A stretch of 41,656 nt of DNA from a virus: the IMG/VR virus record IMGVR_UViG_3300045431_000833, positions 1 to 41,656 of that record. The stretch is one strand, 5' to 3'. Within the stretch, counting starts at the first letter, position 1; every line of letters begins with the position of its first letter. The position numbers were made by a program, and so were the translations under genes. This document shows positions 24,171 to 39,338 of the stretch, piece by piece. The notes under the pieces were generated by a model. The model saw only the letters and a program-made list of their open reading frames with translations, was not told the DNA's origin and ran no database searches.

Positions 24171-24541
24171 GCGGCGGTTTCCTTGGGCGGAGTGTCGTTG
24201 GCGGCGAAGAGGTCCGGCTGGCCAGCCTTCCGCCAGCGAGTGATCCCCGCGTTCATGGCGTGGTGCTTGGCGTCGTAGGTCAGGTGGCAGCGCTGGCACA
24301 TGGCCATGAGGTTCGGCCGGTCGCCGGGCTCGCCGTTGTTCTCCGGCGTGTGATCGAGATGAGCGACGGTCAGGACGACCTTGGAGCCGGTGACCGGGTG
24401 CGGCTCGCCATGGGCGGCTCGGCAGTCCGGGTAGTGGCCCGGCGAGCCCTCGCACCTCCAGCCGGCGCGCTCCCGCACCTCCAGGCTGATCGCTTTCCAG
24501 TCCTTCGGGTAGCGGGCTTTCTGACACGGGCGGATCGGCAT
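24167..24541 (-). CDS. HNH endonuclease
   Basis: 124 residues. Zinc-binding cysteines (Cys30 and Cys40, Cys82 and Cys85) flank a HNH motif: VAHLDHTPENNG (59-70) with His61/His64, Asn77 in RPNLMAMC, and CHLTYDAKHH (85-94). Free-standing HNH proteins often work with the terminase or in DNA metabolism. Here it sits between replication and regulator genes, coupled to both by short overlaps. The C-terminal AANDTPPKE is an example of the recurring A-N-D-x tail. Confidence 0.8.
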   Translation of the reverse strand: MPIRPCQKARYPKDWKAISLEVRERAGWRCEGSPGHYPDCRAAHGEPHPVTGSKVVLTVAHLDHTPENNGEPGDRPNLMAMCQRCHLTYDAKHHAMNAGITRWRKAGQPDLFAANDTPPKETAA

Positions 24542-25557
24542 CAGGCGGCTCCCGCGAACAGGTCAGGCTTGGGGTCATTGGCGGCGTCGACCGAGACGGT
24601 GACCTTCACCCGGGCCAGCCAGGCGGCGAGCTCGCGGTTCAGGGTCGCGGCGACGGCCGGCGTGCGGGCCAGCAGGGTCCGGTCGGCCTCCCGCCAGCGG
24701 CAGTAGTGGTCGAGCCAGCGGACGGCGAAGTCCTCGTCCTTCTCGGCCACGATGCTGGCGCGGAGGGCCGGAGGGCCGTCGAAGGTCGGGGAGGGGGGCA
24801 CCGCGGCCGGCGCCGCCTCGGCCGGCGCGAGGTACTCCTTCCACCGGTCCTTGTTCAGCACCACGGCCGCGCCGCTGGCGAACTGGCCGCCCTCCTTCGT
24901 GCTGGCCGGCAGGGCATAGTAGGCCTGCACCGCTCGCCAGATCGCCGAGGGCAAGCCACCCCGCTTCAGGGCCCCGCCCAGGGCGCGCTGCACGTCCGGC
25001 GCCGTCGACCTCCGCTTCCCCTCGACCAGCGGCTGGGCCTTGTGGATGCGGTCGACCAGCAGGTCGAACGAGCAGCCGGCGTCAGCCGCGACGATCAAGG
25101 CTTTCCCGAAGCGCTTCAGGTCGATCTCGCCCCCTTGGGGGCTGGGGGTATCTTCTTTTGATTCTGGTTCTGGTTTTGTCGGCAAACCGGAAGCATTTGC
25201 TTGCCGATTTAACGCACGTTTTCCGGCACTTGCAGTTCCTCCCGATTTTCCGGCCTCTTTTCGCTTACCGGAAGTGTCGCGGTACTTCGTCAGGTCCTCC
25301 GTCACGCGCGGTTGGGTCAGCTTGCCCCGGCTGATGCGGAAGAGGGGCATCAGCTTCGGCTTGATCGCCAGCCATTCCTTGACCGTCAACTTGGCGTAGC
25401 CGGCGAGCACGTCATCATCGGCCGTCAGCTTGCCCTCGTTGTTCCAGAGGGCACCGATCAGCAGCAGGTAGGCCCCATGCTCCCGGGCGTGGCCGAGATG
25501 GGCGGTGTGCTTGTGGTAGGAGCCCCAGAAGAGCTTCTGGTACGGAGGGGCGGCCAT
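24541..25557 (-). CDS. DUF1376-type replication protein
   Basis: 338 residues. YQKLFWGSYHKHTAHLGHAR (6-25) followed by EHGAYLLLIGALWNNEGKL is the hallmark of the DUF1376 domain, found in phage replication initiators and paired here with DnaB. A low-complexity basic linker (about 95-145: RKEAGKSGGTASAGKRA, then many Pro, Glu and Ser) is encoded by strikingly AT-richer DNA carrying repeated CCGG sites. The C-terminal part is helical and ends in AANDPKPDLFAGA. This two-domain layout with an origin-like linker is that of lambda O. It probably loads the helicase at an origin in its own gene. Confidence 0.75.
   Translation of the reverse strand: MAAPPYQKLFWGSYHKHTAHLGHAREHGAYLLLIGALWNNEGKLTADDDVLAGYAKLTVKEWLAIKPKLMPLFRISRGKLTQPRVTEDLTKYRDTSGKRKEAGKSGGTASAGKRALNRQANASGLPTKPEPESKEDTPSPQGGEIDLKRFGKALIVAADAGCSFDLLVDRIHKAQPLVEGKRRSTAPDVQRALGGALKRGGLPSAIWRAVQAYYALPASTKEGGQFASGAAVVLNKDRWKEYLAPAEAAPAAVPPSPTFDGPPALRASIVAEKDEDFAVRWLDHYCRWREADRTLLARTPAVAATLNRELAAWLARVKVTVSVDAANDPKPDLFAGAA
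25150..25280. other. Candidate replication origin inside the replication gene
   Basis: Within the linker-coding part of the DUF1376 gene is a clearly AT-richer stretch with four CCGG-centred repeats: ACCGGAAG at 25186-25193, TTTTCCGGC at 25219-25227 and 25246-25254, ACCGGAAG at 25267-25274. The CCGG cores are 36, 27 and 18 bases apart. The outer two are in one orientation, the inner two in the other. The layout is like the iterons of the lambda origin within gene O. The repeats are seen; origin function is inferred. Confidence 0.5.
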
Positions 25558-27062
25558 CAGTCGCCACCTCCGAAGCTGAAGACTTCCCGGGGCAGGCCTA
25601 CGGCGTCGTAGCGGTCATCCCGAGCAAGATTGCCGAACTTCGTCGTGTCCTCGTGGAAGGACAGGCGGACGGTGCCGATGGGCCCATGACGCTGCTTGCC
25701 GATGATGACCTCGGCCTGGCCCTGGCACTGCTGGAGCGCCTCGGTCCACTTCAGGTGTTCATCGCTGCCCGGCTTCGGCTCAGCACGGCTCAGGTAGTAG
25801 GCGTCGCGGTAGACGAACATGACGCAGTCGGCGTCCTGCTCGATGCTCCCCGACTCCCGGAGGTCGGACAGCATCGGGCGCTTGTCCTCGCGGGCTTCGA
25901 CCTGCCGGGACAGCTGCGACAGAGCCAGCACCGGGACGTTCAGTTCCTTCGCCAGCGCCTTCAGGGCGCCGGTGATCTGGCTGACCTCCTGCACCCGGTT
26001 CCCGCCCTTGGCGTCCGTGGTGATGAGCTGCAGGTAGTCGATGACGATCAGGTCCAGCCCGGTCTTGCGGTGCTGGCGCCGTGCCTTGGCGCAGAGCCGG
26101 GCGATGTTGATCCCGCCGGTCTCGTCGATGTGGAGCGGGATGTCCCGCAGCATGGCCTGGGCGTCCTTCAGGTCTGCGAACTGGTCCGGCGTGATCAGGC
26201 CCTTCCGGATCCTGTCGTTGGACACGCCGGCGGCGTCGGAGACGATCCGTAGGGCCAACTGCTCCTTGGACATCTCGAGCGAGGCGACGAACACCCGGCC
26301 GCCGGCGATGGTCCGCATGCCGCCCGGGGCGTCCGGGTCCGGCTCGCCCCGCCACTTCTTCGCGACGTTGAAGGCGATGTTGGTGGCCAGCGCCGTCTTC
26401 CCCATCGACGGGCGGCCGGCGAGGATCAGAAGGTCGGATGGGTGCAGGCCGCCCAGCTTCTGGTCGAGGTCCACCAGATCGGTCGCCAACCCGGTCAGCT
26501 GGCCGTCGCGCCGATAGGCGGCCTCGGCCTGCTCGATCGCGCCGTCCAGCGCCTCGGCGAAGGTCGCCACGCCCTTGCCCTGCTCACCCGTCTCCGCCAG
26601 CGCAAAGAGCGCTCCCTCGGCCTTGGCGAGGTGGTCCGCGGCCGGGACGGAGGTGTCCTCGGCCTCCTTGGCGATCTCGGCGCCGATGCGGATCAGGTCG
26701 CGTCGGACGGCCAGGTCGTAGATGGCGCGCGAGAAGTCGACGGCTACGCGCACCGGCGGCGCCCGCTCGACCAGCCGGTTCAGGTAGGCGAGCCCGCCGA
26801 ACTGGTTGAAGGCCTCGTCACCGGCAAGCGTGGTGGCCAGCAGGGTGGGCGAGGCGCTCCGGCCGGCCGCGCTCGCCTGCAGGATGGCGTCGAACAGACG
26901 CTGGTGGAACGGCTCGTAGAAGTGGGCGCCGCGCAGCCGGTCGTTGATCCGCTCCACGACGGCGTTGTCGTAGAGCAGGGCGCCCAGCAGGTCCTGCTCG
27001 GCTTCCAGATTGTGCGGGAGGGACTTGGTCTCGGCGGTGTCCCGCGGATCGCTGTCGACCAT
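25557..27062 (-). CDS. dnaB: Replicative DNA helicase, DnaB family
   Basis: 501 residues from the ATG at 27062 (which overlaps the upstream stop as TGATG). The N-terminal helical domain (LPHNLEAEQDLLGALLYDN, about 15-33) and a RecA-like ATPase domain with Walker A AGRPSMGKTALA (215-226) and Walker B LDLIVIDYLQLI (336-347), followed by the DnaB motif QLSRQVEAREDKRPMLSDLR. It unwinds DNA at the phage fork. Its gene follows a small gene and precedes the DUF1376 partner. Length and motifs are normal for the family. Confidence 0.95.
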   Translation of the reverse strand: MVDSDPRDTAETKSLPHNLEAEQDLLGALLYDNAVVERINDRLRGAHFYEPFHQRLFDAILQASAAGRSASPTLLATTLAGDEAFNQFGGLAYLNRLVERAPPVRVAVDFSRAIYDLAVRRDLIRIGAEIAKEAEDTSVPAADHLAKAEGALFALAETGEQGKGVATFAEALDGAIEQAEAAYRRDGQLTGLATDLVDLDQKLGGLHPSDLLILAGRPSMGKTALATNIAFNVAKKWRGEPDPDAPGGMRTIAGGRVFVASLEMSKEQLALRIVSDAAGVSNDRIRKGLITPDQFADLKDAQAMLRDIPLHIDETGGINIARLCAKARRQHRKTGLDLIVIDYLQLITTDAKGGNRVQEVSQITGALKALAKELNVPVLALSQLSRQVEAREDKRPMLSDLRESGSIEQDADCVMFVYRDAYYLSRAEPKPGSDEHLKWTEALQQCQGQAEVIIGKQRHGPIGTVRLSFHEDTTKFGNLARDDRYDAVGLPREVFSFGGGD

Positions 27063-27244
27063 CACTCGGCCTCCGCGTCGAACAGAGGGCCACAGCGGAT
27101 GGCGTCCGCCCGGGCATCGGACATGTCAGCCCAGCGGCGCAGCTCGGCCGCGCGCTTGGGGTAGCGCTTCTCCCGCAGCTCGGCTTCTCGGCGCATCCGG
27201 GAGCCGTAGAAGGTTTCGAAGGCGAGGAGGTCGTCCCGGTTCAT
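27062..27244 (-). CDS. Small charged helical protein, unknown
   Basis: 60 residues from ATG 27244, very rich in Arg, Glu and Asp (LLAFETFYGSRMRREAELRE). It fits exactly between the helicase-methyltransferase gene and dnaB: two bases after the first and overlapping the second. All-helical, no motifs. Probably a small early protein; a longer frame reaching upstream lies in the neighbouring gene and was rejected. Confidence 0.5.
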   Translation of the reverse strand: MNRDDLLAFETFYGSRMRREAELREKRYPKRAAELRRWADMSDARADAIRCGPLFDAEAE

Positions 27245-27246
27245 GG

Positions 27247-29787
27247 TCAGGCCGCCTCCGCCGAAGGCTCGTCGTCGTTGGCCAGCAGGTCGAACAGCGA
27301 GGGGATCGCGAGCTCGCGCTCGGCCGCCTGCAGGTGCTTCACCCCGTCGAGGAAGTAGGAGGTGTTGAGCTCCGCGGCCCGGCCCTTCCGGCCGAGGCGG
27401 ATCGCGCGGTTCGGAACCGTGAAGAGCCCGCCAAACGGGTCGTAGACGGTCTCGCCCTTCATGCTCCACCGCTCGATGCAGCGGTCGACGATGTCGAACT
27501 GGAGCGGGCAGATGTGGTTCTCCAGCCCGCGCCGGGTCTGCTCGCCGTTCAGGGTCAGCATCCGGGCGACGTCGTGCCAGACGTCCGGATCATGGCTGCC
27601 CGGCGCCAGGGCCATGAAGGTCGAAGGCAGAGCCCCGCGGACTTCAAGGGCCTCGCCGATCCGGACGTGCGTCTCGTAGTCGTAGACGTCGGCCAGGCTG
27701 GCGGCGGTGAAGGCGCGGACCAGCTTGTCCGGCGGGAGTGCGGCGAGTTCTTCGGCTGTCATGGCCCGGTTGCCGCTGGACCGCCAGAAGGCGTGGGCGT
27801 CGACCTGCCAGCGCGCGAGGCTGTAGTCGGCCTTAGAGCGCGCAATGCGCTTGTCGGCGTAGCCCTTGGACCGGTCCGTCTGCGGCTTGAAGAACAGGCA
27901 GACGTACTCCGGCGAGCCGACGCCCATGCGGCTGCCGTCCTTGCACATCTCGGTGTAGCCGAGGCGATAGGTCTGGTTGTTCTCCCGGACCACGTCGGTG
28001 ACGACGGTGATCATGCCGGCGAAGACAAAGCCGTGCTTCTGGTAGTGGCCGATCGTCTCGGCATGGAAGGGGGAGACCGCCGGCCGGCCGTGGCCGGTGA
28101 CCGATCCGAACAGGATCCGGTCCTTGACGTGGATGGCGGCGATGCGGCCGGGCGCCAGGACCCGGAACAGTTCCGGCGTCAGGAAGTCCATCTGGGCCCA
28201 GAAGTGGGCGTTGTCGTCGGTGTGGCCGAAGTCGTTGTAGTTCGGGCTGTACTCGTAGTGGTTGGAGAAGGGGATCGAGGTCACGATCAGGTCGACCGAG
28301 TTCTCCTCCATGCGCCGGGTCTCCTCGACGCAGTCGTTGTTCGCGACCAGCCAGCCGTCGCCGGAGGCCTCGATGCGCTCCACGCCCGAGGCGCGGGCCA
28401 GTTCGGCGCCCATCTCCCGATGGTTCAGCCCGTATTTGCGGATGATTTCGGTCATGATCTGGCGGAGCTCCTTGTCGCGAGCCCACTTCGCTTCCAGGTC
28501 CCTGCGGACCTCGCGTTCGGTCTCGGCATAGACGATGTCGATCTCGACCGGCCGGGTCTGGCCGAAGCGCTGGATGCGGTGGATCGCTTGGATGAAGTCG
28601 TTGAACTTGAAGCCGACGCCGGCGAACACGGCGCGGTGGCAGTGGCGCTGGAAGTTGCAGCCTGACCCCGCGATCACCGGCTTGGCGGCGAGGTCGGTGA
28701 TCTTCCCGTCGGAGAAGTCGATGATGGCCTGTTCGCGCTCGTCGAGGTCCTGCGTCCCGTAGACGGACACGGCGCCCGGGATGGCCTGCTCAAGGGCCCG
28801 GCGCTCATCCTCGAGATCGTGCCAGAGGATGAAGCGATCGTCTGGGCTGGCCTGACGGATCTCCGCCACCTTGGCGATCCGGGCCGGAAGGGTGTCGCGG
28901 CGCTCCTTGGCGGCCTGCTGGAGGCCCATGGCGGCGTTGCGGAACAGGGCGATCTGGCCGTCGCGGTCCGTGTCGGTCGACGTCAGGTCGGCCTGCACCT
29001 CGTGCCAGCGGACCGTGATCTCCGGCAGGACATAGCCGTCGTCGGAGTAGCCGAGGTCGGAGGGCTTCTGCAGGAAGATCGCCCAGCTGTTCACCCAGAG
29101 CCAGAACTCCCGCTCCTTGTGCGGGTAGAGGGTCAGGTCGCCGGCCTTCTCGCTGTTCCGCTGGAAGAAGCGGGTCAGGGCCTGGCCGGTGTCCATGATG
29201 CCGAGGAAGCCGGCGTAGTGGATCAACTCCTTGAAGCGGTTCGGCGAGGGCGTGGCCGTAGCGACGTGCCGGTACGGGACCTGATCGAAGAGCGGCAGGA
29301 ACGTCTGGAAGGTCTTGGACCCGAAGGAGCGGAGGCATGACGCTTCGTCGAGCGACGCCCAGGTGAAGGCGGCCGGATCGACCTTCCCGTCCCTGACGCT
29401 CTCGTAGTTGGTCAGGCTGATGCCTTCGCCGGCCTCGTCGGTCGAGCGGATGAAGCGCGGCTCCTCCTCCCAGCCGAGGACCTGCACGGCATCGCGCTTG
29501 AACTCCTGCCGAACCCCGAGGGGCAGGACGATCAGGCCCCGCCGGTCCATGCCGTGCGCGCGCGCAGCCGCGTCGAGCACCAGGCGGCCGGTCTCCAGCT
29601 GGATCGTCGTCTTGCCGAGGCCGAAGGCGGTGAAGTAGGCGCGCCGGCCGCCGCGGACGCCCCACCGGGTGATGGCGGCGGCGTGCGGTTTCATGGCCGG
29701 ATTGATGGCCTCGGCCGGGATGTCGAAGCCGGTCTCTTCCGCCGGCGGGGCCTTGGCGGCGATGAACTCGCGGTAGGCGTCAGACAT
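27247..29787 (-). CDS. SF2 helicase fused to beta-class DNA methyltransferase
   Basis: 846 residues from ATG 29787, which has GGAGG six bases upstream. The first 430 residues are a SNF2-type superfamily 2 helicase: AFGLGKTT (54-61, Walker A), DEAS box (147-150), ATATPSP (176-182, motif III), QAIHRIQRFGQTRP (400-413, motif VI). The rest is a DNA amino-methyltransferase with motif IV as TSIPFS (503-508, instead of the usual S/N/D-P-P-Y/F), then a recognition region, motif X (about 757-774) and motif I as DPFGG (783-787): the beta-class order of N6-adenine or N4-cytosine enzymes. No endonuclease domain is present. The last residues include LANDDEPSAEAA. Likely roles are modification of phage DNA against host restriction or at the replication fork; the target sequence is unknown. 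Confidence 0.85.
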   Translation of the reverse strand: MSDAYREFIAAKAPPAEETGFDIPAEAINPAMKPHAAAITRWGVRGGRRAYFTAFGLGKTTIQLETGRLVLDAAARAHGMDRRGLIVLPLGVRQEFKRDAVQVLGWEEEPRFIRSTDEAGEGISLTNYESVRDGKVDPAAFTWASLDEASCLRSFGSKTFQTFLPLFDQVPYRHVATATPSPNRFKELIHYAGFLGIMDTGQALTRFFQRNSEKAGDLTLYPHKEREFWLWVNSWAIFLQKPSDLGYSDDGYVLPEITVRWHEVQADLTSTDTDRDGQIALFRNAAMGLQQAAKERRDTLPARIAKVAEIRQASPDDRFILWHDLEDERRALEQAIPGAVSVYGTQDLDEREQAIIDFSDGKITDLAAKPVIAGSGCNFQRHCHRAVFAGVGFKFNDFIQAIHRIQRFGQTRPVEIDIVYAETEREVRRDLEAKWARDKELRQIMTEIIRKYGLNHREMGAELARASGVERIEASGDGWLVANNDCVEETRRMEENSVDLIVTSIPFSNHYEYSPNYNDFGHTDDNAHFWAQMDFLTPELFRVLAPGRIAAIHVKDRILFGSVTGHGRPAVSPFHAETIGHYQKHGFVFAGMITVVTDVVRENNQTYRLGYTEMCKDGSRMGVGSPEYVCLFFKPQTDRSKGYADKRIARSKADYSLARWQVDAHAFWRSSGNRAMTAEELAALPPDKLVRAFTAASLADVYDYETHVRIGEALEVRGALPSTFMALAPGSHDPDVWHDVARMLTLNGEQTRRGLENHICPLQFDIVDRCIERWSMKGETVYDPFGGLFTVPNRAIRLGRKGRAAELNTSYFLDGVKHLQAAERELAIPSLFDLLANDDEPSAEAA

Positions 29788-30157
29788 CGTCGCCTCCGTC
29801 GTTCGCGTGGTCTTCGTTCGCCGGCCGCTGGAGCTTGGCGAAGGCCTGCTCGGCCGCGGCATTCTTGATCGCGCGGGGCAGCCGGAACACGGCGCAGATG
29901 TCGGTGGCGACGGAGTTGAAGCTGGTCGCCGCATCGACGCGCCCGGTCAGGGGCCAGAGCTTCTCCCCGATGATGTCCAGCGCATCCTTGAGGATGGCGG
30001 CCTGCTCGGCGGGATCTTCGATGTCCGCCAGCATGGCGCCCACGGTCCGGCGGGCCTGCATCCGCAGGAACATCGCGCGGGCGGTCCGCTGGGCTTTCCG
30101 GGCCGGGGCTTCCCGGCTCCGGTCGATACGCTCGACAAGGTACTGTTCTCGGCTCAC
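29780..30157 (-). CDS. Small helical early protein, unknown
   Basis: 125 residues from a GTG that overlaps the stop of the LexA-type gene; its end overlaps the helicase-methyltransferase start by eight bases. Strongly helical with an Arg-rich N-terminus (IDRSREAPARKAQRTARAMF) and an acidic tail containing ANEDHANDGGDD. No recognisable domain. Its tight coupling to the helicase-methyltransferase gene suggests a shared job, but none can be named. Confidence 0.5.
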   Translation of the reverse strand: MSREQYLVERIDRSREAPARKAQRTARAMFLRMQARRTVGAMLADIEDPAEQAAILKDALDIIGEKLWPLTGRVDAATSFNSVATDICAVFRLPRAIKNAAAEQAFAKLQRPANEDHANDGGDDV

Positions 30158-32418: not shown

Positions 32419-32877
32419 TCAGGCCGCTCGCAGCGGCGAAGGGCATGCGGCGTCGATCGCTCGCCGGGCGGCCTTGAGGCGGTCGAGCGCGGCTTCGGCG
32501 TCCCGCTCAGCGGCGGCGATGGCGTCGATCTCGCGCGGGGTAAGCTGGCCGTCCGACAGGGCCCGGCGGATCAGGGCCTGAGCCTCGAGGGTCTGTTCCG
32601 ACAGTTCGCAGGCCAGATCGGCCAGGTTGCCGGCCGGGACCGGGAACATGCGGCGCTCGGCGATGGCGCCGGAGTAGATCGGGCCCTGCTGGGCGTACTC
32701 CTCCAGCGCGTCGATGATGTCTGCCGGCATGGTCGATGGGTCGTGAGCCGTCTGGTATCCGGACAGGGCGGACTTCTTCACCCGGCAGGCCCCGGCCGCC
32801 TCTTCCAGCCCGCCGCAGGCTTCGATCAGTTCCCGGGCCAGACGGGCATGTTCGCGGGGGCTGAGCTTCTTGTTCAC
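32419..32877 (-). CDS. CII-like phage regulatory protein
   Basis: 152 residues from a GTG. The first 60 residues look like the phage CII regulatory family (PF06892 type): an N-terminal helix, LIEACGGLEEAAGACRVKKS, then LSGYQTAHDPSTMPADIIDA and a LEEYAQQGPIYSG-type end, that is a GG-x-x-x-A-A helix-turn-helix followed by a MP-x-D-I-x-x-L-E segment. The C-terminus is a helical region rich in Ala and Glu. It may activate lysogeny or regulate early promoters. The gene is in the leftward early operon, second after the Cro-like gene group. Confidence 0.65.
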   Translation of the reverse strand: MNKKLSPREHARLARELIEACGGLEEAAGACRVKKSALSGYQTAHDPSTMPADIIDALEEYAQQGPIYSGAIAERRMFPVPAGNLADLACELSEQTLEAQALIRRALSDGQLTPREIDAIAAAERDAEAALDRLKAARRAIDAACPSPLRAA

Positions 32878-32931: not shown

Positions 32932-33240
32932 TCAGGCGGGTTGTTCGGAGGTGGCGGGGTGTTCGTCGTTGGCGGCGTGCAGATGTGGTTCGGGACGCTC
33001 CCGGAGGGGGAGGCGGCAGCCTGGGGTCCACTGCGCCCGGTCCAGATGCTTTGCGGCCTGCGCTTGGGCGGCGAGGACGCCGCGGAGGAGGGGCTTCTGT
33101 TCGGCGACGATGGAGGCTGCTTCGCAGACCAGCGCCCGCAGCTTCGCCTCGTCGCCGGCACGGACGTGCATCCGGGCCCGCTCGATCAGGTCGTAGACGC
33201 GGCCGGCCTCTGTCAGGACGTCATGCGAGAGCATGCGCAT
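32932..33240 (-). CDS. Small helical early protein, unknown
   Basis: 102 residues from ATG 33240 with AGGAG six bases upstream. Helical N-terminus (VLTEAGRVYDLIERARMHVR), a second helix (ASIVAEQKPLLRGVLAAQAQ), and a disordered tail with HAANDEHPATSEQPA. No function recognised. Confidence 0.5.
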   Translation of the reverse strand: MRMLSHDVLTEAGRVYDLIERARMHVRAGDEAKLRALVCEAASIVAEQKPLLRGVLAAQAQAAKHLDRAQWTPGCRLPLRERPEPHLHAANDEHPATSEQPA

Positions 33241-33352
33241 CGGGGACTCCTGTGATCGGGGGTTGCCCGCCGCGGGCTGACGAAGGGGAGGGGCCCGCGG
33301 CGGGCGCCATCGCGAGCAGCCGGGCGCTCAGCGATGAGGGGGAGGCGGCCAT

Positions 33353-33610
33353 TCAGGCGGCCTCACTGCTGGGGCTGGCGTCGTTGGCGGCTTCCAGCCG
33401 GAAGGAGCGGACGAGCGCCACGTCGGGATTGAGATCGGAGGCCGGGATCCGGCCTTCGGAGACACGTTCGATCTCCAGTGCGACGCGCACGCTTGGCGTC
33501 TGCTCGCCACGTTCGATTTGGCTCAGATGACCTTTGCTCTTGAGGCCAACACGAGCGGCGAACGCCTCTTGCGAGAGGCCCAGGTCTTTACGGAGTTCGG
33601 CGATGTCCAT
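33353..33610 (-). CDS. Cro-like helix-turn-helix protein
   Basis: 85 residues from ATG 33610. A classical XRE/Cro helix-turn-helix: LRKDLGLSQEAFAARVGLKS and then KGHLSQIERGEQTPSVRVAL. The C-terminal tail (AANDASPSSEAA) is short. It is the first gene of the leftward early operon and divergent from the repressor, as expected for the lytic switch protein. No ribosome-binding site precedes the start, and the predicted transcription start is only about one base upstream, so this mRNA may also be leaderless. It would repress the repressor promoter. Confidence 0.8.
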   Translation of the reverse strand: MDIAELRKDLGLSQEAFAARVGLKSKGHLSQIERGEQTPSVRVALEIERVSEGRIPASDLNPDVALVRSFRLEAANDASPSSEAA

Positions 33611-33617
33611 GCGGCGA

Positions 33618-33645
33618 AGTTTGCATATGCCGAACATTTCGGCAA
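33618..33645 (-). promoter_or_regulatory. Early-left promoter overlapped by operator
   Basis: Leftward: TTGCCG (33645-33640), 16-base spacer, CAAACT (33623-33618). Predicted transcription start near 33611, adjacent to the Cro-like start at 33610. The region 33635-33616 (GTTCGGCATATGCAAACTTC) is identical to 35889-35908 in front of the right early operon. The operator at 33628-33644 covers the -35 and spacer, so a bound repressor would block it. Confidence 0.65.
33628..33644. promoter_or_regulatory. Operator O1: perfect 17-bp palindrome
   Basis: TGCCGAACATTTCGGCA: seven-base arms TGCCGAA/TTCGGCA around CAT. The sequence in the middle of the intergenic control region and its recurrence in the right control region point to the phage repressor or Cro-like protein as binder. 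Confidence 0.7.
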
Positions 33646-33660
33646 GCCCGATGTTCGGCA
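33646..33660. promoter_or_regulatory. Operator O2 (degenerate)
   Basis: On the minus strand TGCCGAACATCGGGC: the first ten bases equal O1, the second arm is degraded. It lies directly upstream of the -35 of the left promoter and of the -35 of the repressor promoter. Confidence 0.5.
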
Positions 33661-33668
33661 TTGCCGTA

Positions 33669-33697
33669 CTGACGGCGCGCGGCATGGTTCGCATACT
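33669..33697 (+). promoter_or_regulatory. Repressor promoter, leaderless transcript predicted
   Basis: CTGACG (33669-33674), a 17-base spacer, CATACT (33692-33697). The expected transcription start is position 33704, the A of the repressor ATG. No ribosome-binding site is present before that ATG. Confidence 0.6.
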
Positions 33698-33712
33698 CCG
33701 AACATGTCGGAG
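33696..33712. promoter_or_regulatory. Operator O3 overlapping the repressor start codon
   Basis: CTCCGAACATGTCGGAG: arms CTCCGA/TCGGAG, core CCGAACAT shared with O1 and O2. It covers the end of the -10 element and the start codon of the repressor gene, so binding here would shut off the repressor itself or be used by the Cro-like protein. Confidence 0.6.
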
Positions 33713-34096
33713 AAGCCCCGGAAGACGCGCCCCCTCGAGCTCTACGAGGAGTATCGTGAGAAGAGCGGCTGGTATCTGGCCGCTTGGAGAGACTTTGCGG
33801 GCCTGACGCTTGAGGACTTGGCTTCCGAGCTCGGCAGGTCGCGCGGGTACATCTCCGACCTTGAGACCGGCGCCGTCCGTGCTGGCCGGCCAGCGACGCG
33901 GTTCAATCGCGACCTGGTGGATCAGGTGGCCAAGGCCGTGCACACGACCGGCGGGCGACTGATCGATGTGAACCCGTTTACGGCATGGGAGCACTCCGCT
34001 CGTCTCGATGAGACGATCCGCGCCCTTTCCTCAGAGGACAGGGAGGCTGTCTTGGACATGGCCGAGCGGCTGGCCCGCAAGAGCGTTGCCGCTTGA
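33704..34096 (+). CDS. Prophage repressor (XRE helix-turn-helix)
   Basis: 130 residues from ATG 33704. Helix-turn-helix at about 24-55: FAGLTLEDLASELGRSRGYI followed by SDLETGAVRAGRPA, a recognisable XRE motif. The rest (DLVDQVAKAVHTTGGRLIDV, LSSEDREAVLDMAERLARKS) is helical and may dimerise. No S24 autopeptidase domain is present, so induction must work differently from lambda, possibly by another protein. It faces the Cro-like gene across an operator-rich gap of 93 bases and is the first gene of a four-gene lysogeny operon. Confidence 0.75.
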   Translation: MSEKPRKTRPLELYEEYREKSGWYLAAWRDFAGLTLEDLASELGRSRGYISDLETGAVRAGRPATRFNRDLVDQVAKAVHTTGGRLIDVNPFTAWEHSARLDETIRALSSEDREAVLDMAERLARKSVAA

Positions 34097-34127
34097 GTGC
34101 AGCGACTATGAGCCTGGGGAGGGCATA

Positions 34128-34631
34128 ATGAAGAAGATCGCAATTGCCGGGCTGATTGCGGCATCGATGCTTTCAGCGTGCGCGACCAATGTCGGAACGC
34201 AGACCGTCAACGACTTTGGTCGCTTTCAGCAAGCGGTCGCCGGGCAGACCACGAAGACGCAGATCCACGACCTGTTCGGCCAGCCCCACCGCGTGACATA
34301 CATTCCGCAGAGCAACGAGAGCCTGTGGCAGTACTATCAGGTCCGTTCGACGACGAACCCGACCACCTTCATTCCGTTCGTCGGAATGGTGACTGGAGGC
34401 AACGACCTCGACATCACCCGCGCCGACTTCTTCTTCGACGCCGAGGGGATCCTTCTCCGCACGCAACGGGAGCAACGGACCCGCTACAAGAATCAGTGGC
34501 TGGGTATGGCAGACGCGCTCACACGCGACGGCTCTGTCGCTGAGGTTGAGGCAGAAATGCAGCGGCTGAACCTGCCCTTCGACAGGCAGGAAGCGCAGAT
34601 TGCCGCCGGATGGGCGGACTGGGATGACTAG
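34128..34631 (+). CDS. BamE/SmpA-like outer membrane lipoprotein
   Basis: 167 residues. Signal peptide MKKIAIAGLIAASMLSACAT with lipobox LSAC (cut before Cys18). The mature part opens with AVAGQTTKTQIHDLFGQPHR and shows SLWQYYQVRSTTN, which is the outline of the BamE/SmpA/OmlA fold (an x-G-x-T-x-x-x-V/I-x-x-x-x-G-x-P segment followed by W-x-Y). BamE is a part of the outer membrane assembly machine; a phage copy may alter surface proteins. ATG 34128 is preceded by GGGGAGGG. It follows the repressor by 31 bases and is likely on the same mRNA in the lysogen. Confidence 0.7.
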   Translation: MKKIAIAGLIAASMLSACATNVGTQTVNDFGRFQQAVAGQTTKTQIHDLFGQPHRVTYIPQSNESLWQYYQVRSTTNPTTFIPFVGMVTGGNDLDITRADFFFDAEGILLRTQREQRTRYKNQWLGMADALTRDGSVAEVEAEMQRLNLPFDRQEAQIAAGWADWDD

Positions 34632-35013
34632 TCGGCTGCTTGCCTGCTTCGCCGTCCTCTTGTCCGGCTGCGCAGGAATGGCAGAGGGGACGGTCGATCA
34701 GTCACGCGAGATACTTCTGACCTCTTCTCCGAGCGACGCTCGCGTCAGTCAGGGCGGCCCCACGATTTGCCGGACACCGTGCACCGTTCGTCAGCAGCGG
34801 CTCAACCTTCTGGAGCCGCTAGTGTTCGAGTTTCCTGACGGTCGGCGTGCGGAGACGCGCACTGGCCAGAACTGGAACGCCACGACGCTCGGCAATGCCG
34901 CGTTCGGAGGGCCTCTCGGTGTGGCTATGGATGTAATCTCAGGACGGGTAATTCTCGCAGATCGGCACATCCACGCGGTGGCGGAAGATCAGGCTGCAGG
35001 AACTTCCGAATGA
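34624..35013 (+). CDS. Putative lipoprotein, PEGA-like
   Basis: 129 residues from ATG 34624, overlapping the previous gene by eight bases. Signal peptide with lipobox LLSGC (Cys15 or so). The mature part has LLTSSPSDARVSQGGPTICR then TPCTVRQQRLN, a pattern like PEGA-type domains (S-x-P-x-x-A-x-V...T-P-C), and a Gly-rich end (GNAAFGGPLGVAMDVISG) that could be a membrane-associated turn. Probably anchored in the outer membrane. The repeat of a lipoprotein next to another suggests the pair works together. Confidence 0.6.
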   Translation: MTSRLLACFAVLLSGCAGMAEGTVDQSREILLTSSPSDARVSQGGPTICRTPCTVRQQRLNLLEPLVFEFPDGRRAETRTGQNWNATTLGNAAFGGPLGVAMDVISGRVILADRHIHAVAEDQAAGTSE

Positions 35014-35444
35014 TCGTCTGGCAGGACCCGCCTCCCTACGTTCAGTACCTCGCCGAAGCAGAGGCTCTCGGCCGACTGTCCCTTGCGAGCGGCGCATGTA
35101 GTGCACTGAACTACGAAACCGACGTGCAGCGCGGGATCGCCGAGACCGAGGCATATGTCCGTCGAGCGGCCATTGATCGCGTTGGGTCTGACTTCGCCAG
35201 TCAGACGTTCGAGGCGGCCGTCGAGCGGGAGACTGCCGAGTGGCAGATGATGACGGCCGAGGGACCTGACGATACCGAGGAAGAAGCGGACGCTAGAATG
35301 GTCGACGGCGCCGCTTTCGTCGTCAGCCGGTGCGCCCTCTCCGCAGAAGAGTACCCGTCGGTCATCAAGGCCAACGGGGACGAGCCCAAGACAGCGGCCG
35401 AGCTGTTCGAACTCATCATGCGGCAAGGACCTGATAGCGAGTAA
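35010..35444 (+). CDS. Unknown protein of the lysogeny operon
   Basis: 144 residues, ATGA overlap with the lipoprotein gene. No signal peptide. Helical, acidic, with two cysteines (Cys30, Cys107) and text such as LGRLSLASGACSALNYETDV. Not recognised. Coupling suggests it acts with the two lipoproteins. Confidence 0.5.
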   Translation: MIVWQDPPPYVQYLAEAEALGRLSLASGACSALNYETDVQRGIAETEAYVRRAAIDRVGSDFASQTFEAAVERETAEWQMMTAEGPDDTEEEADARMVDGAAFVVSRCALSAEEYPSVIKANGDEPKTAAELFELIMRQGPDSE

Positions 35445-35452
35445 CGACGCGC

Positions 35453-35731
35453 CTAGGCGGCGGCATCGTCCAGCCAGGGATCTCGGCCTTCCGGGTCGAT
35501 AGCCAGCGCCGCCCGTGGCACCGCACCGTGCTCCGCCAGCACCTCCGGATCCGCATAGATTTCGGCCTCGGCGTCGATCCACTGCTGGTAGACCAGAACT
35601 CCGTCGGCCGACTTTGCCAGGATTAGGCCGCCTTCCTCGGCGTCGACCGCGCACAGGAACTCGTAACGCTCCGCGGGCTCATGGCGGTCGTTCCAGAATG
35701 GCTGTGCGAAGTAGCGAAGTCGGCGCGGCAT
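35453..35731 (-). CDS. Small acidic protein on the opposite strand, unknown
   Basis: 92 residues, a beta-strand-rich first half (RRLRYFAQPFWNDRHEPAER) and an acidic second half ending in WLDDAAA. It converges with the lysogeny operon (8 bases between stops) and is divergent from the right operon (gap of 199 bases with two GANTC sites and the right promoter). Function unknown. Confidence 0.5.
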   Translation of the reverse strand: MPRRLRYFAQPFWNDRHEPAERYEFLCAVDAEEGGLILAKSADGVLVYQQWIDAEAEIYADPEVLAEHGAVPRAALAIDPEGRDPWLDDAAA

Positions 35732-35863
35732 GGCCGTTGTTCCTCCAATCGTTAATCCGATTCCGCACGGCGGGCTCCGAGAGTCCAGACGGCCGCGTCA
35801 GGGGTGCGTCCGGTTCTGACGTGTGGCTTCTGCCGAACCACGGCCCCGCGGCGGGTTTGTGAA

Positions 35864-35908
35864 TGCCGAACATTTCGCTTGCGACGAGGTTCGGCATATG
35901 CAAACTTC
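35864..35908 (+). promoter_or_regulatory. Early-right promoter with operator half-sites
   Basis: TTGCGA (35879-35884), 16-base spacer, CAAACT (35901-35906). 35889-35908 is identical to the left promoter block. TGCCGAACATTTCGC at 35864-35878 equals the first 14 bases of operator O1, plus one; another TGCCGAAC lies at 35831-35838. The expected transcription start is near 35913, with a GGAGAG ribosome site before the ATG at 35931. This promoter is likely controlled by the same repressor as the left one. Confidence 0.65.
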
Positions 35909-35930
35909 TCTCCATCAACGGAGAGACCTC

Positions 35931-36239
35931 ATGTCCCTGCACCCGACCTTCTCGGACCTCCTCCGCCGCCCGGCGGCTCTGGACGCCGGGCTGCCGCTGC
36001 AGACCATCACGGCCCCGACCGGTGAGCAGGTCCGTGGCCGCCTGACCGACAAGCTGCACGCCAAGGCGTGGGGCAAGCTGATGGTCGGGGGCGTGTCCGA
36101 GGCCCCGGTTCTCGATCACGACGACCTGTCCGACTGGCTCGACTTCCACGTCATCGATCTGGTGGGGAATGGGAGCCGGGATCGGTACGAGGCTGGCGCT
36201 GCCCGGTGGGCCGCCCGTCGGCAGAAGGCGGCGGCGTGA
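35931..36239 (+). CDS. Early-right protein, unknown
   Basis: 102 residues, first gene of the rightward early operon, ATG at 35931 with GGAGAG upstream. It contains a beta-rich stretch (LPLQTITAPTGEQVRGRLTD) and a helical end (RYEAGAARWAARRQKAAA). No known motif. The next gene overlaps its stop. Confidence 0.5.
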   Translation: MSLHPTFSDLLRRPAALDAGLPLQTITAPTGEQVRGRLTDKLHAKAWGKLMVGGVSEAPVLDHDDLSDWLDFHVIDLVGNGSRDRYEAGAARWAARRQKAAA

Positions 36240-36451
36240 TGGTCGCCAAGCGCTTCACCCACTTCCACGACAGGACCGACGGCCGGGGCGGCTATCGGGA
36301 CACCGACAAGGTCAGAACGGCGCTCCGCTGGCATCGGGAAGCGGTCGCTCGCGAAGGGACGGATCGCTCGTGGATATACGAGTACGACCGTGAGTCAGGC
36401 GAACGCGTGGCCACAATCGCGAACTGGTCACGCGAAGGGGTGGAGGCCTGA
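36239..36451 (+). CDS. Small early-right protein, unknown
   Basis: 70 residues from ATG 36239 (TGATG overlap). Rich in charged and aromatic residues (KRFTHFHDRTDGRGGYRDTD, then SWIYEYDRESGERVATIANW). Probably a small beta protein. No function recognised. Confidence 0.45.
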   Translation: MVAKRFTHFHDRTDGRGGYRDTDKVRTALRWHREAVAREGTDRSWIYEYDRESGERVATIANWSREGVEA

Positions 36452-36452
36452 C

Positions 36453-36791
36453 ATGGTCTTCGCCTGCTCCTCCACCCCCGGCGAGCGCCAAGGCCTGCGC
36501 CTGATCAAGGGCGAGGTCGACGGCATCGTCGAGCGCCTCGGCATTCCGGCTGAGCCCGACCGCCGCCCCCGCTATTTCGCCGAGAATGCCTATGTCGTGG
36601 TCACCGCCACGAAGCGCCGGATGACGCTGGAACAGGCCTGGGCGGAGGCAAACGACCTCCTGCTGACGGCGACGTGTCCGAGCGTCGGAACGCTGGCCGA
36701 CGCAGCGGCGGACGAGCTCCAAGACATCATCCGGGCGATGCGCGAGGCGGGAACGCCGACGCCGCCGGCCGCCATGGCGAAGGCTGCGTGA
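36453..36791 (+). CDS. Small early-right protein, unknown
   Basis: 112 residues from ATG 36453. Mixed alpha/beta with LIKGEVDGIVERLGIPAEPD and YFAENAYVVVTATKRRMTLE; a helical C-terminus ends in PAAMAKAA. Not recognised; spacing to both neighbours is minimal, so it is part of the operon. Confidence 0.45.
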   Translation: MVFACSSTPGERQGLRLIKGEVDGIVERLGIPAEPDRRPRYFAENAYVVVTATKRRMTLEQAWAEANDLLLTATCPSVGTLADAAADELQDIIRAMREAGTPTPPAAMAKAA

Positions 36792-37265: not shown

Positions 37266-37535
37266 ATGAACCGACCGATGCTGAGAACCGTCGACGCGCT
37301 GACCCCCGCCGAACTGGCGATGCAGCGTGAGGCAGAGGCCCGCCAGTTGGCCGAGCAGGAGGCCCGCGCCATCGAGGCCGACGCCCGCGCCCTGCTGGCC
37401 CGGTGCGAGCAATACACCCGGCTCAACAGCGTTCACGCCGGCTTCCGCCACGCGACGGTCGAGCTGATCTGCTCGCTGCGGCTCAAGGTGCCGACGCTGA
37501 GCGCGATCCTTGGCGCACAGGACGGTGCGGCGTGA
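37266..37535 (+). CDS. Helical early protein, unknown
   Basis: 89 residues, Glu/Ala/Arg-rich helix (AELAMQREAEARQLAEQEAR) in the first half and LRLKVPTLSAILGAQDGAA at the end. It precedes the exonuclease gene with a GTGA overlap. It may assist recombination or be a small regulator; nothing specific is seen. Confidence 0.45.
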   Translation: MNRPMLRTVDALTPAELAMQREAEARQLAEQEARAIEADARALLARCEQYTRLNSVHAGFRHATVELICSLRLKVPTLSAILGAQDGAA

Positions 37536-38485
37536 CCCTCGCGAACCCCATCAAGTTGCCCGACGGCGAGAAGATCGCGGCGCCCGGCGTCTACGACCTG
37601 ACCATGGCGCAGTATCACGGCGACTGCTGCGCCGAGCCGTCGATCTCGTCGTCGGGCCTGCGGACCATCTGGAGCCAATCGCCGGCGCACTACTGGTACG
37701 CCAGCCCCTACAACCCCAACCCGCCGGAGCCGGAAGAGCGGCCGCACTTCTCCATCGGTCGCGCCGCGCATCACCTCCTGTACCTGGGCCGCAAGGGCTT
37801 CGATGCGGAATTCGTCGTCCGGCCGTCCGAGTGGAAGGACTGGCGGACCAAGGCCGCTCAGGAATGGCGCGCCGAGCAGATCAAGGCCGGCAAGACTATC
37901 ATCACCGACGGCGAGCTGGAGAAGATCACCGGCATGGCCCGGTCTCTCGGCGCCCATCCGTTGGTGAAGGCCGGGATCCTCGACGGCGCCGTTGAGCGCT
38001 CGCTGATCTGGCGCGATCCGTCCGGCGCCTGGCTGAAGAGCCGGCCCGACAACATCCCGACGGGCTCCGGCCTCTTCGCCGACCTGAAGACGACGGAGAG
38101 CGTCTCCGACGAGAGCCTCGCCCGGTCGCTGGCCAGCTTCGGCTACCACATGCAGGCCGCGCTGGTCGGCATGGCCTCCGAAGCCGTTCTCGGCCGCCAG
38201 ATGGAGGAGTTCGCCCTCGTCTGGGTGGAGAAGGCGCCGCCGCACTGCGTCCGCGTCACGGTCCTGACCGGCGCTGATCTGGAGCGGGGCCGCATGCAGG
38301 TCCGCCGCGCCATCGACCTGTTCGCCTCCTGCGTCGCGTCCGGCGAATGGCCGGGCCCAGGCGGCGACAGGACCGATGCCGAATACCTCGAGCTGCCCCC
38401 GTGGGCGGCCAAGCAGATCGACCAGCGGCTCGAGATCGCCGCCGCCGAAGCCAACGACAACCACCAGCACCCCGAGGCCGCCTGA
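37532..38485 (+). CDS. RecE-like exonuclease (DUF3799, PD-(D/E)XK family)
   Basis: 317 residues from a GTG that overlaps the previous stop (GTGA). The nuclease core: GRAAHHLLYLG (77-87, His80), RPDN at 171-174 and DLK at 184-186, giving the D...DxK signature; then YHMQAALVGM, a Gln-containing motif typical of the family. These proteins resect double-strand ends for single-strand annealing and are paired with Bet/RecT. The Bet-like gene follows immediately. The last residues (EANDNHQHPEAA) are again an A-N-D-x tail. Confidence 0.85.
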   Translation: MTLANPIKLPDGEKIAAPGVYDLTMAQYHGDCCAEPSISSSGLRTIWSQSPAHYWYASPYNPNPPEPEERPHFSIGRAAHHLLYLGRKGFDAEFVVRPSEWKDWRTKAAQEWRAEQIKAGKTIITDGELEKITGMARSLGAHPLVKAGILDGAVERSLIWRDPSGAWLKSRPDNIPTGSGLFADLKTTESVSDESLARSLASFGYHMQAALVGMASEAVLGRQMEEFALVWVEKAPPHCVRVTVLTGADLERGRMQVRRAIDLFASCVASGEWPGPGGDRTDAEYLELPPWAAKQIDQRLEIAAAEANDNHQHPEAA

Positions 38486-38486
38486 T

Positions 38487-39338
38487 ATGAGCAACACCGC
38501 CGTCGTCCAATTTCAGGCTCCGCGCCTGCCGTATCACGCCGTGGTCGAGGAGCGCTTCGGCGTCGACAAGGCCGGCTGGAAGGTGCTGTGCGAAGCCGTA
38601 TTCCCCGCTGCGGCCTCTCCGGACAGCGTCGTCATGGCGCTCGCCTACTGCAAGGCGCGGAACCTCGACATCTTTAAGAAGCCCGTCCAGATCGTGCCCA
38701 TCTGGGACAAGAAGGCCGGGCGCATGGTCGATACCGTGTGGCCGGGCATCGCCGAGCTTCGCACGACCGCCATGCGGACGGGCTCCTTCGCCGGCTTCGA
38801 CGAGACGCTGTTCGGGCCGATGATCGACCTGGAGCTGTCCGGGGTGAAGGTCTCGGCGCCCGAGTGGGCGCAGTGCACCGTCTACCGGATGCTCGGCGGG
38901 CAGCGTGTCCCGTTCGTCGGACCGAAGGTCTACTGGATCGAGACCTACGCCACGGCGAAGAAGGACACGAAGGCCCCCAACACGATGTGGGCCAAGCGCC
39001 CGCGCGGCCAGCTGGAGAAGTGCGCCGAAGCCGCCGCCCTCCGCCGTGCCTTCCCGGAAGAGCTCGGCAACGACATCGCGGCAGAGGAGATCGCGCCCTA
39101 CGGGGCCCTCCGCGACGTCACCGCCCGGGAGACTCCGAACCTCGCCGCCCGCTTGGCGGATCACTCGGGCGATCACCCGACCGAGGGCTTCACCGCCGTT
39201 CACAGCGAATCCGAACCCGCCAGCCCCCTCGGCGACGACGACATCCCGACCTTCGACCAAGAGCAGGTCGAAGCCAGCGAAGGGCAGGGGGCTGAGGCTC
39301 CGACCGGGGATGACGACGGCTTCCCGGGGGATCGGTGA
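38487..39338 (+). CDS. bet: Bet/RecT-family single-strand annealing protein
   Basis: 283 residues. The core has LPYHAVVEERFGVDKAGWKV, then FPAAASPDSVVMALAYCKAR and NLDIFKKPVQIVPIWDKKAG, the classical entry of phage Bet proteins (recombination protein Bet/RecT), followed by VWPGIAELRTTAMRTGSFAG. The last 60 residues are an acidic disordered tail. Works with the RecE-like exonuclease in phage recombination. Confidence 0.88.
   Translation: MSNTAVVQFQAPRLPYHAVVEERFGVDKAGWKVLCEAVFPAAASPDSVVMALAYCKARNLDIFKKPVQIVPIWDKKAGRMVDTVWPGIAELRTTAMRTGSFAGFDETLFGPMIDLELSGVKVSAPEWAQCTVYRMLGGQRVPFVGPKVYWIETYATAKKDTKAPNTMWAKRPRGQLEKCAEAAALRRAFPEELGNDIAAEEIAPYGALRDVTARETPNLAARLADHSGDHPTEGFTAVHSESEPASPLGDDDIPTFDQEQVEASEGQGAEAPTGDDDGFPGDR

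Follow-up and report, generated by a model that had tools for sequence, protein, structure and literature searches.

Do the left and right early operons of a phage answer to one set of operators and to one repressor? The question is raised by IMG/VR virus record IMGVR_UViG_3300045431_000833, which we analysed over its full 41,656 nucleotides (the window), and in which the 20-base sequence GTTCGGCATATGCAAACTTC stands at 33616-33635 on the minus strand and at 35889-35908 on the plus strand. The original prediction had placed this 20-mer at both early regions and had judged such noncoding identity across 2.2 kb unlikely by chance, and both statements hold: the copies are exact, no other copy occurs in the window at three or fewer mismatches, and 0 are expected from shuffles. 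The match extends beyond the 20-mer, with 42 of 54 bases identical between the left block (33669 down to 33616) and 35855-35908, in register and in inverted orientation; the next best ungapped matches of the left block are mostly with the dyads adjacent to it. We find that the two blocks very probably belong to the region that governs immunity and switches a temperate-type phage between lysis and lysogeny, arranged as a mirror image of its counterpart in phage lambda.

The shorter sequence TGCCGAACAT, which had been taken for the operator, does lie at 33628-33637 (plus), 33651-33660 (minus) and 35864-35873 (plus), with a one-mismatch copy within the second 20-mer, but it is half of the actual operator unit, a 17-bp dyad of the form GTTYG-N7-CRAAC. 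Four perfect dyads occur in the 41.7-kb window (33619, 33687, 35855 and 35889, against 0.17 expected), all of them in these two regions, and a fifth, at 33653, has one mismatch. On the left, dyads at 33619, 33653 and 33687 follow one another at steps of 34 + 34 bp between the divergent Cro-like and repressor genes, and on the right the pair at 35855 and 35889 is again 34 bp apart, upstream of the right operon. The third left site, at 33687-33703 directly before the repressor ATG, had been overlooked. The putative operators and predicted promoters are these:

33619-33635, minus strand: operator O1, GTTCGGCATATGCAAAC, over the left promoter -10
33653-33669, plus strand: operator O2, GTTCGGCATTGCCGTAC, with one arm mismatch and its centre at -43 from the predicted repressor start
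33687-33703, plus strand: operator O3, GTTCGCATACTCCGAAC, over the repressor -10 and adjoining the repressor ATG (33704)
35855-35871, plus strand: operator R2, GTTTGTGAATGCCGAAC
35889-35905, plus strand: operator R1, GTTCGGCATATGCAAAC, over the right promoter -10
33617-33645, minus strand: predicted left promoter, -35 TTGCCG (33645-33640), TG (33625-33624), -10 AAACTT (33622-33617)
35879-35907, plus strand: predicted right promoter, -35 TTGCGA, TG (35899-35900), -10 AAACTT (35902-35907)
33669-33697, plus strand: predicted repressor promoter, CTGACG (33669-33674), 17 bp, CATACT (33692-33697), as read from the letters

The left and right promoters had been described as TTGC, a 16-base spacer and CAAACT. 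The TTGC -35 element stands, but since it is the TG that is conserved across phages, the remainder is better read as a 17-bp spacer with an extended -10, TGC-AAACTT. From this geometry the left transcript is predicted to start at about 33610 and to be leaderless, and the right transcript at about 35914. Both the Cro and the repressor mRNAs are probably leaderless, because the cro ATG lies at the start that the geometry predicts, 9 bp past O1 (as it does in most phages), and the repressor ATG abuts O3, which it also does in the relatives of the window and in several other phages. The CTGAC of the repressor promoter is kept in most close relatives. A scan of the region for canonical sigma-70 promoters found none, so these promoters would be weak by the Escherichia coli consensus, and the argument for them rests on conservation of position.

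How widely is this layout found? The literal cassette TGCCGAACAT-N3-GCTTGC-N5-GTTCGGCA was tried as a conserved unit and rejected, with 0 matches in viral contigs, so the conserved element is the dyad and its step rather than exact letters; the pair of blocks that was to be sought in related phages is there as a layout and not as literal sequence. Among 50,697 phage records, neither a blastn search with 33000-36700 nor a tblastn search with the repressor gave a match. With the repressor as query, protein relatives of at least 39% identity were found at six viral loci, and a seventh (L009) gave a short partial match; further relatives came through the Cro-like protein (L010 and L073) and, for a Brevundimonas metagenome-assembled genome (L067), through a dyad scan. 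In the relatives inspected, the switch dyads lie at 0, 34 and 68 bp, the middle one being degenerate in some, and a dyad pair with 34-bp spacing lies downstream of the repressor. All six homologous loci keep the 34-bp registers and have the second array in the same relative orientation. Between the repressor stop and the second array lie 0.4 to 3.8 kb in this set of relatives, so there is no conserved loop length.

Two dyads 34 bp apart, with linker and flanks unspecified, were also used as a pattern in a geometry scan, and this matched 31 viral-contig stretches and 28 genome-contig stretches, the latter including Brevundimonas, Caulobacter, Phenylobacterium, Sphingomonas and Aureimonas. In most viral stretches a second, matching array lies 0.4-5.3 kb away. 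In 29 of 31 viral arrays (a set that includes the window and L007, neither of which is a pattern match), a -35 element, TTG followed by A, C or T, lies at linker position 7 or 8, where about 5% would be expected per linker. The dinucleotide TG is found at operator positions 11-12 in 29 of the 36 promoter operators nearest a gene, compared with 3/36 for the mirrored arm and 7/36 for the upstream operator; read in this way, the TG is the directional mark of a predicted extended -10 lying 17 bp from the -35. Among the genome-contig matches, 8 of 23 tested have the TTG linker; those without it, largely non-alphaproteobacterial, are probably chance matches. The repressor matched only one of 131 genomes in the genus of the Brevundimonas assembly, so a Brevundimonas-type host is no more than suggested.

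Next, we asked whether the two arrays of a phage share one specificity. A search of whole records for single dyads returns few per record, and in most records these cluster at two places. At the nine dyad positions that the pattern leaves unspecified, the two arrays of one phage agree at 72% of positions versus 51% between phages (n = 30; permutation p = 5e-5), and the result is unchanged when close relatives are dropped. Across about 30 related phages the layout is kept, and site sequence and repressor appear to change together. From the matching of the arrays we infer that a single small repressor binds the like sites of both and represses both early promoters.

The genes around the arrays are consistent with such a switch:

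33353-33610, minus strand: Cro-like repressor gene, 85 amino acids, first of the left early operon (Pfam HTH_3, 1.2e-12)
33704-34096, plus strand: prophage repressor gene, 130 amino acids (HTH_31, 8.4e-9, plus a helical C-terminus; homologues L003-L008, L067 and L073)
32419-32877, minus strand: CII-like activator, left operon (phrog_101, 6.9e-10)
24541-27065, minus strand: replication genes on the left-operon side, a DnaB-like helicase (phrog_19, 1.8e-104) and a primosomal protein (phrog_9327, 6.3e-17)
35931-36239, plus strand: first gene of the right early operon, 102 amino acids, no Pfam or PHROGs match
37532-39338, plus strand: exonuclease VIII-like gene (phrog_412, 3.3e-77) and RecT-like annealing protein gene (phrog_2449, 2.4e-70) of the right operon

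Divergent repressor and Cro-type helix-turn-helix (HTH) genes flank shared operators, a second matching set stands at the other early promoter, and cro, CII and replication lie on one side with exonuclease and annealing protein on the other, which is the layout of a lambda-type bipartite immunity region. The earlier suggestion of a lambda-like OL/OR design is thus supported by matched arrays in about 30 phages, by the fixed -35 and extended -10 positions, by early genes in lambda order and by two cultured phages described below.

The absence of an autopeptidase, also part of that suggestion, is borne out. Peptidase S24 (PF00717) was found neither in the window nor in six related records, while the same search was positive in 10 of 14 control genomes; ImmA/IrrE metallopeptidase (PF06114) had no match in the window. 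The repressor at 33704 is outside the CI-S24 family. Its AlphaFold model (predicted local distance difference test score, pLDDT, 82) has a helical C-terminus, and its fold matches are generic HTH proteins including DdrO, SinR, ClgR and lambda CI, none below E = 0.001; the DdrO-like match, taken alone, is weak. The Cro-like protein is all-helical (pLDDT 88), with HTH regulators including YdaS and lambda repressor as its best fold matches. A Phenylobacterium prophage (L072:1004-1609) has the same layout, and there the gene after O3 encodes an HTH-S24 protein, a repressor of the autocleaving type (S24, 1.2e-17). This supports the 33704 gene, which occupies the same place, as the prophage repressor. 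The layout, as read from these genes, carries repressors with and without an autopeptidase, L072 being a putative swap of the induction module on a fixed operator layout, and the lack of S24 in the window implies another induction route here.

How would the switch work? Most likely, the 17-bp dyads serve as binding sites for both the 130-residue repressor and the Cro-like protein. At O1/O2 and R1/R2 the repressor would cover the left and right promoters from -35 to -10 and turn both off, the left promoter driving cro, the CII-like gene and replication, and the right promoter driving exonuclease and RecT. In lambda, OR2 is centred at -42. Because the centre of O2 lies at about -43 from the predicted repressor start, much as where OR2-bound CI activates PRM, repressor at O2 may activate its own promoter. 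Filling of O3 by Cro or by excess repressor would then shut off repressor synthesis, since O3 overlaps the repressor -10 and abuts the start codon.

It could instead be that both arrays are bound by the repressor alone or by the Cro-like protein alone, and that its partner uses different sites or serves as an anti-repressor. That non-homologous Cro-like and repressor types accompany similar dyads, with one dyad class per phage, would fit this version, but we consider it unlikely because three switch sites, one over each promoter start, are the arrangement expected for shared sites, as in lambda, where repressor and Cro share three switch operator sites. It is very improbable that the dyads are sites of a host regulator such as LexA: the GTTC/GAAC half-site does resemble parts of the alphaproteobacterial and Bacillus SOS boxes (Table 1, PMC9578287), but the Caulobacter box GTTC-N7-GTTC has a single copy in the window, away from the arrays, the Bacillus-type SOS box has 0, and the dyad sequence shifts from phage to phage at both arrays together, which a shared host factor would not produce. 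Least probable of all is that the matched blocks have no regulatory meaning and are products of recent duplication or recombination, or attachment-like repeats, as the extent and inverted orientation of the match might suggest, because identity is concentrated in the dyads, TTG and TG while linkers differ within one phage, and because the layout persists where dyads have diverged, with the two arrays of each phage diverging together.

The sequence, geometry and conservation of the arrays, their left-right matching and their gene context, all observed directly, thus favour the immunity switch. Several points weigh against it. Binding, repression, activation from O2, the transcript starts and the function of the leader hairpin described below are deduced from sequence. 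The window, a linear fragment, has no tyrosine integrase (PF00589), which scores above cut-off in four of six relatives. Pairing of the arrays was manual, and five phages of the GTTTGC type, in which the gene after the 34-bp array looks Cro-like, probably have their switch and distal labels interchanged; in the matching test, one array of a phage is set against the other regardless of label. Shared ancestry of related phages inflates some of the counts. Finally, many relatives have a degenerate O2, and activation from this site may therefore not be a general feature.

The right operon has a further element in its leader:

35907-35926, plus strand: hairpin TCTCTCC-ATCAAC-GGAGAGA, containing the right-operon Shine-Dalgarno sequence (-11 kcal/mol, z = -3.5)

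Comparable hairpins are found in the leaders of L003, L007, L008, L014, L021, L038, L042, L062, L077, L083 and L094 and are absent from some phages, and their stems vary (CTCTCC/GGAGAG, CACTCC/GGAGTG, GTTCCC/GGGAAC, GGCTCC/GGAGCC, TGCACTC/GAGTGCA). Because a multiple alignment of the right leaders left the hairpin arms unaligned, pairing was tested by exchanging arms between phages. The arms pair within each phage (own -9.6 vs swapped -6.5 kcal/mol, p = 5e-5, n = 29), and the effect is absent in a control stretch further downstream (p = 0.76) and on the cro side (p = 0.14). In most phages the 5′ arm lies some 3-8 bases beyond the operator and ahead of the start, which is predicted at +9; transcripts from the right promoter would therefore lack the arm and leave the ribosome site open. 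The repressor operon and the right operon point the same way, and a simple scan found no terminator before the right promoter on the path from the repressor operon; read-through along this path would carry the hairpin and hide the ribosome site. The hairpin may in this way keep transcripts that run on from the repressor operon from expressing the right operon. With a start 6 bases further upstream, every transcript would begin with the hairpin, whose function would then be a different one. In the T4 gene e leader, the Shine-Dalgarno sequence is hidden in long transcripts and free in those that start inside the hairpin (PMC3014915). The T4 device separates early from late expression, whereas the one here would separate lysogenic read-through from lytic transcripts.

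As in lambda, divergent repressor and cro genes have three operators between them, a second operator set precedes the recombination operon, extra genes lie between repressor and second operator, a CII-like gene follows cro, and the repressor operon points into the recombination operon. Unlike lambda, the window has the mirror orientation, another operator sequence, a 34-bp step, two right sites, a repressor without S24 peptidase and a right-operon Shine-Dalgarno sequence within a hairpin. Operators of Rhizobium phage 16-3 have the form ACAA-N4/6-TTGT. This phage is temperate, has an alphaproteobacterial host and carries left and right operators oL1, oL2, oR1 and oR2 (PMC12429752). For Sinorhizobium phiLM21-like prophages, operators identical to those of lambda or 16-3 are reported to be absent, and the real ones were left open (PMC12429752).

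Two cultured phages also have the layout. Pseudanabaena phage Pam1 (ON014753, L094) has dyads of the same type, with O1 and O3 separated by 68 bp, a pair spaced by 34 bp with a TTGAC linker, a repressor ATG that immediately follows O3, and genes annotated as CI, Cro and CII beside the GTTYG arrays; it differs in its half-sites (GTTCGC/GTTCGT) and in giving no tblastn match to the window repressor. The functions of its CI, Cro and CII were predicted from modelled structures, and its operators are unmentioned (PMC9382816). Microcystis phages Mae-JY04 and Mae-JY28 (PP395637, PP438420) have a Cro-like protein 56% identical over 68 residues to that of the window. Mae-JY04 (L095: 4894-4979, 5482-5533) has nearly the same registers, 69 and 35 bp, the repressor ATG directly after O3 and a TTGAC linker in its second pair, together with GTTTC-N7-GAAAC at both arrays and another repressor type. 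It is, by its sequence, the clearest case of both arrays sharing one specificity and a putative natural specificity swap. Pam1 and Mae-JY04 are recorded on cyanobacteria yet carry a mostly alphaproteobacterial layout, and their true hosts may deserve checking.

We tentatively propose, with rather less than even confidence, a widespread, mostly alphaproteobacterial chassis with fixed step, promoter and start-codon positions, in which half-site, repressor class (autopeptidase present or absent) and Cro class are swapped, together with a right-operon hairpin that guards against read-through from the repressor operon and is escaped only by transcripts that begin at the right promoter. As far as records and literature show, the new elements are the leader hairpin, the fixed array geometry and the recurrence of that geometry in about 30 phages whose half-sites and repressors change. 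The fixed-geometry dyad rule can locate the switch in the sequence of many unstudied phages, together with its operators, promoters and start codons, and it may help to predict cross-immune prophages. Because half-site and induction domain are swapped naturally on one layout, the specificity of the repressor and its induction could be tested as two distinct modules.

A different arrangement of a similar dyad is seen in L087 (G029:C1:42509-42647), where six GTTTG-N7-CAAAC dyads lie within 140 bp, mostly 19-23 bp apart, a spacing close to that of the lambda operators. No Rfam families were found in the region. Between the repressor and the right operator, at a rex-like position, lie further genes:

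34128-35444, plus strand: three genes (phrog_3135, 7.8e-12; phrog_1119, 0.009)

The first is lipoprotein-like (its signal was read by eye) and has a weak match to Cor superinfection exclusion (0.009); two of the three are lipoprotein-like, and these genes are candidates for expression in the lysogen. The left operon also includes RuvC-like and helicase genes. At 27247-29934 an 895-residue protein matches DNA helicase families along most of its sequence and, in its C-terminal part, DNA methyltransferase families, and may be a helicase-methyltransferase fusion.

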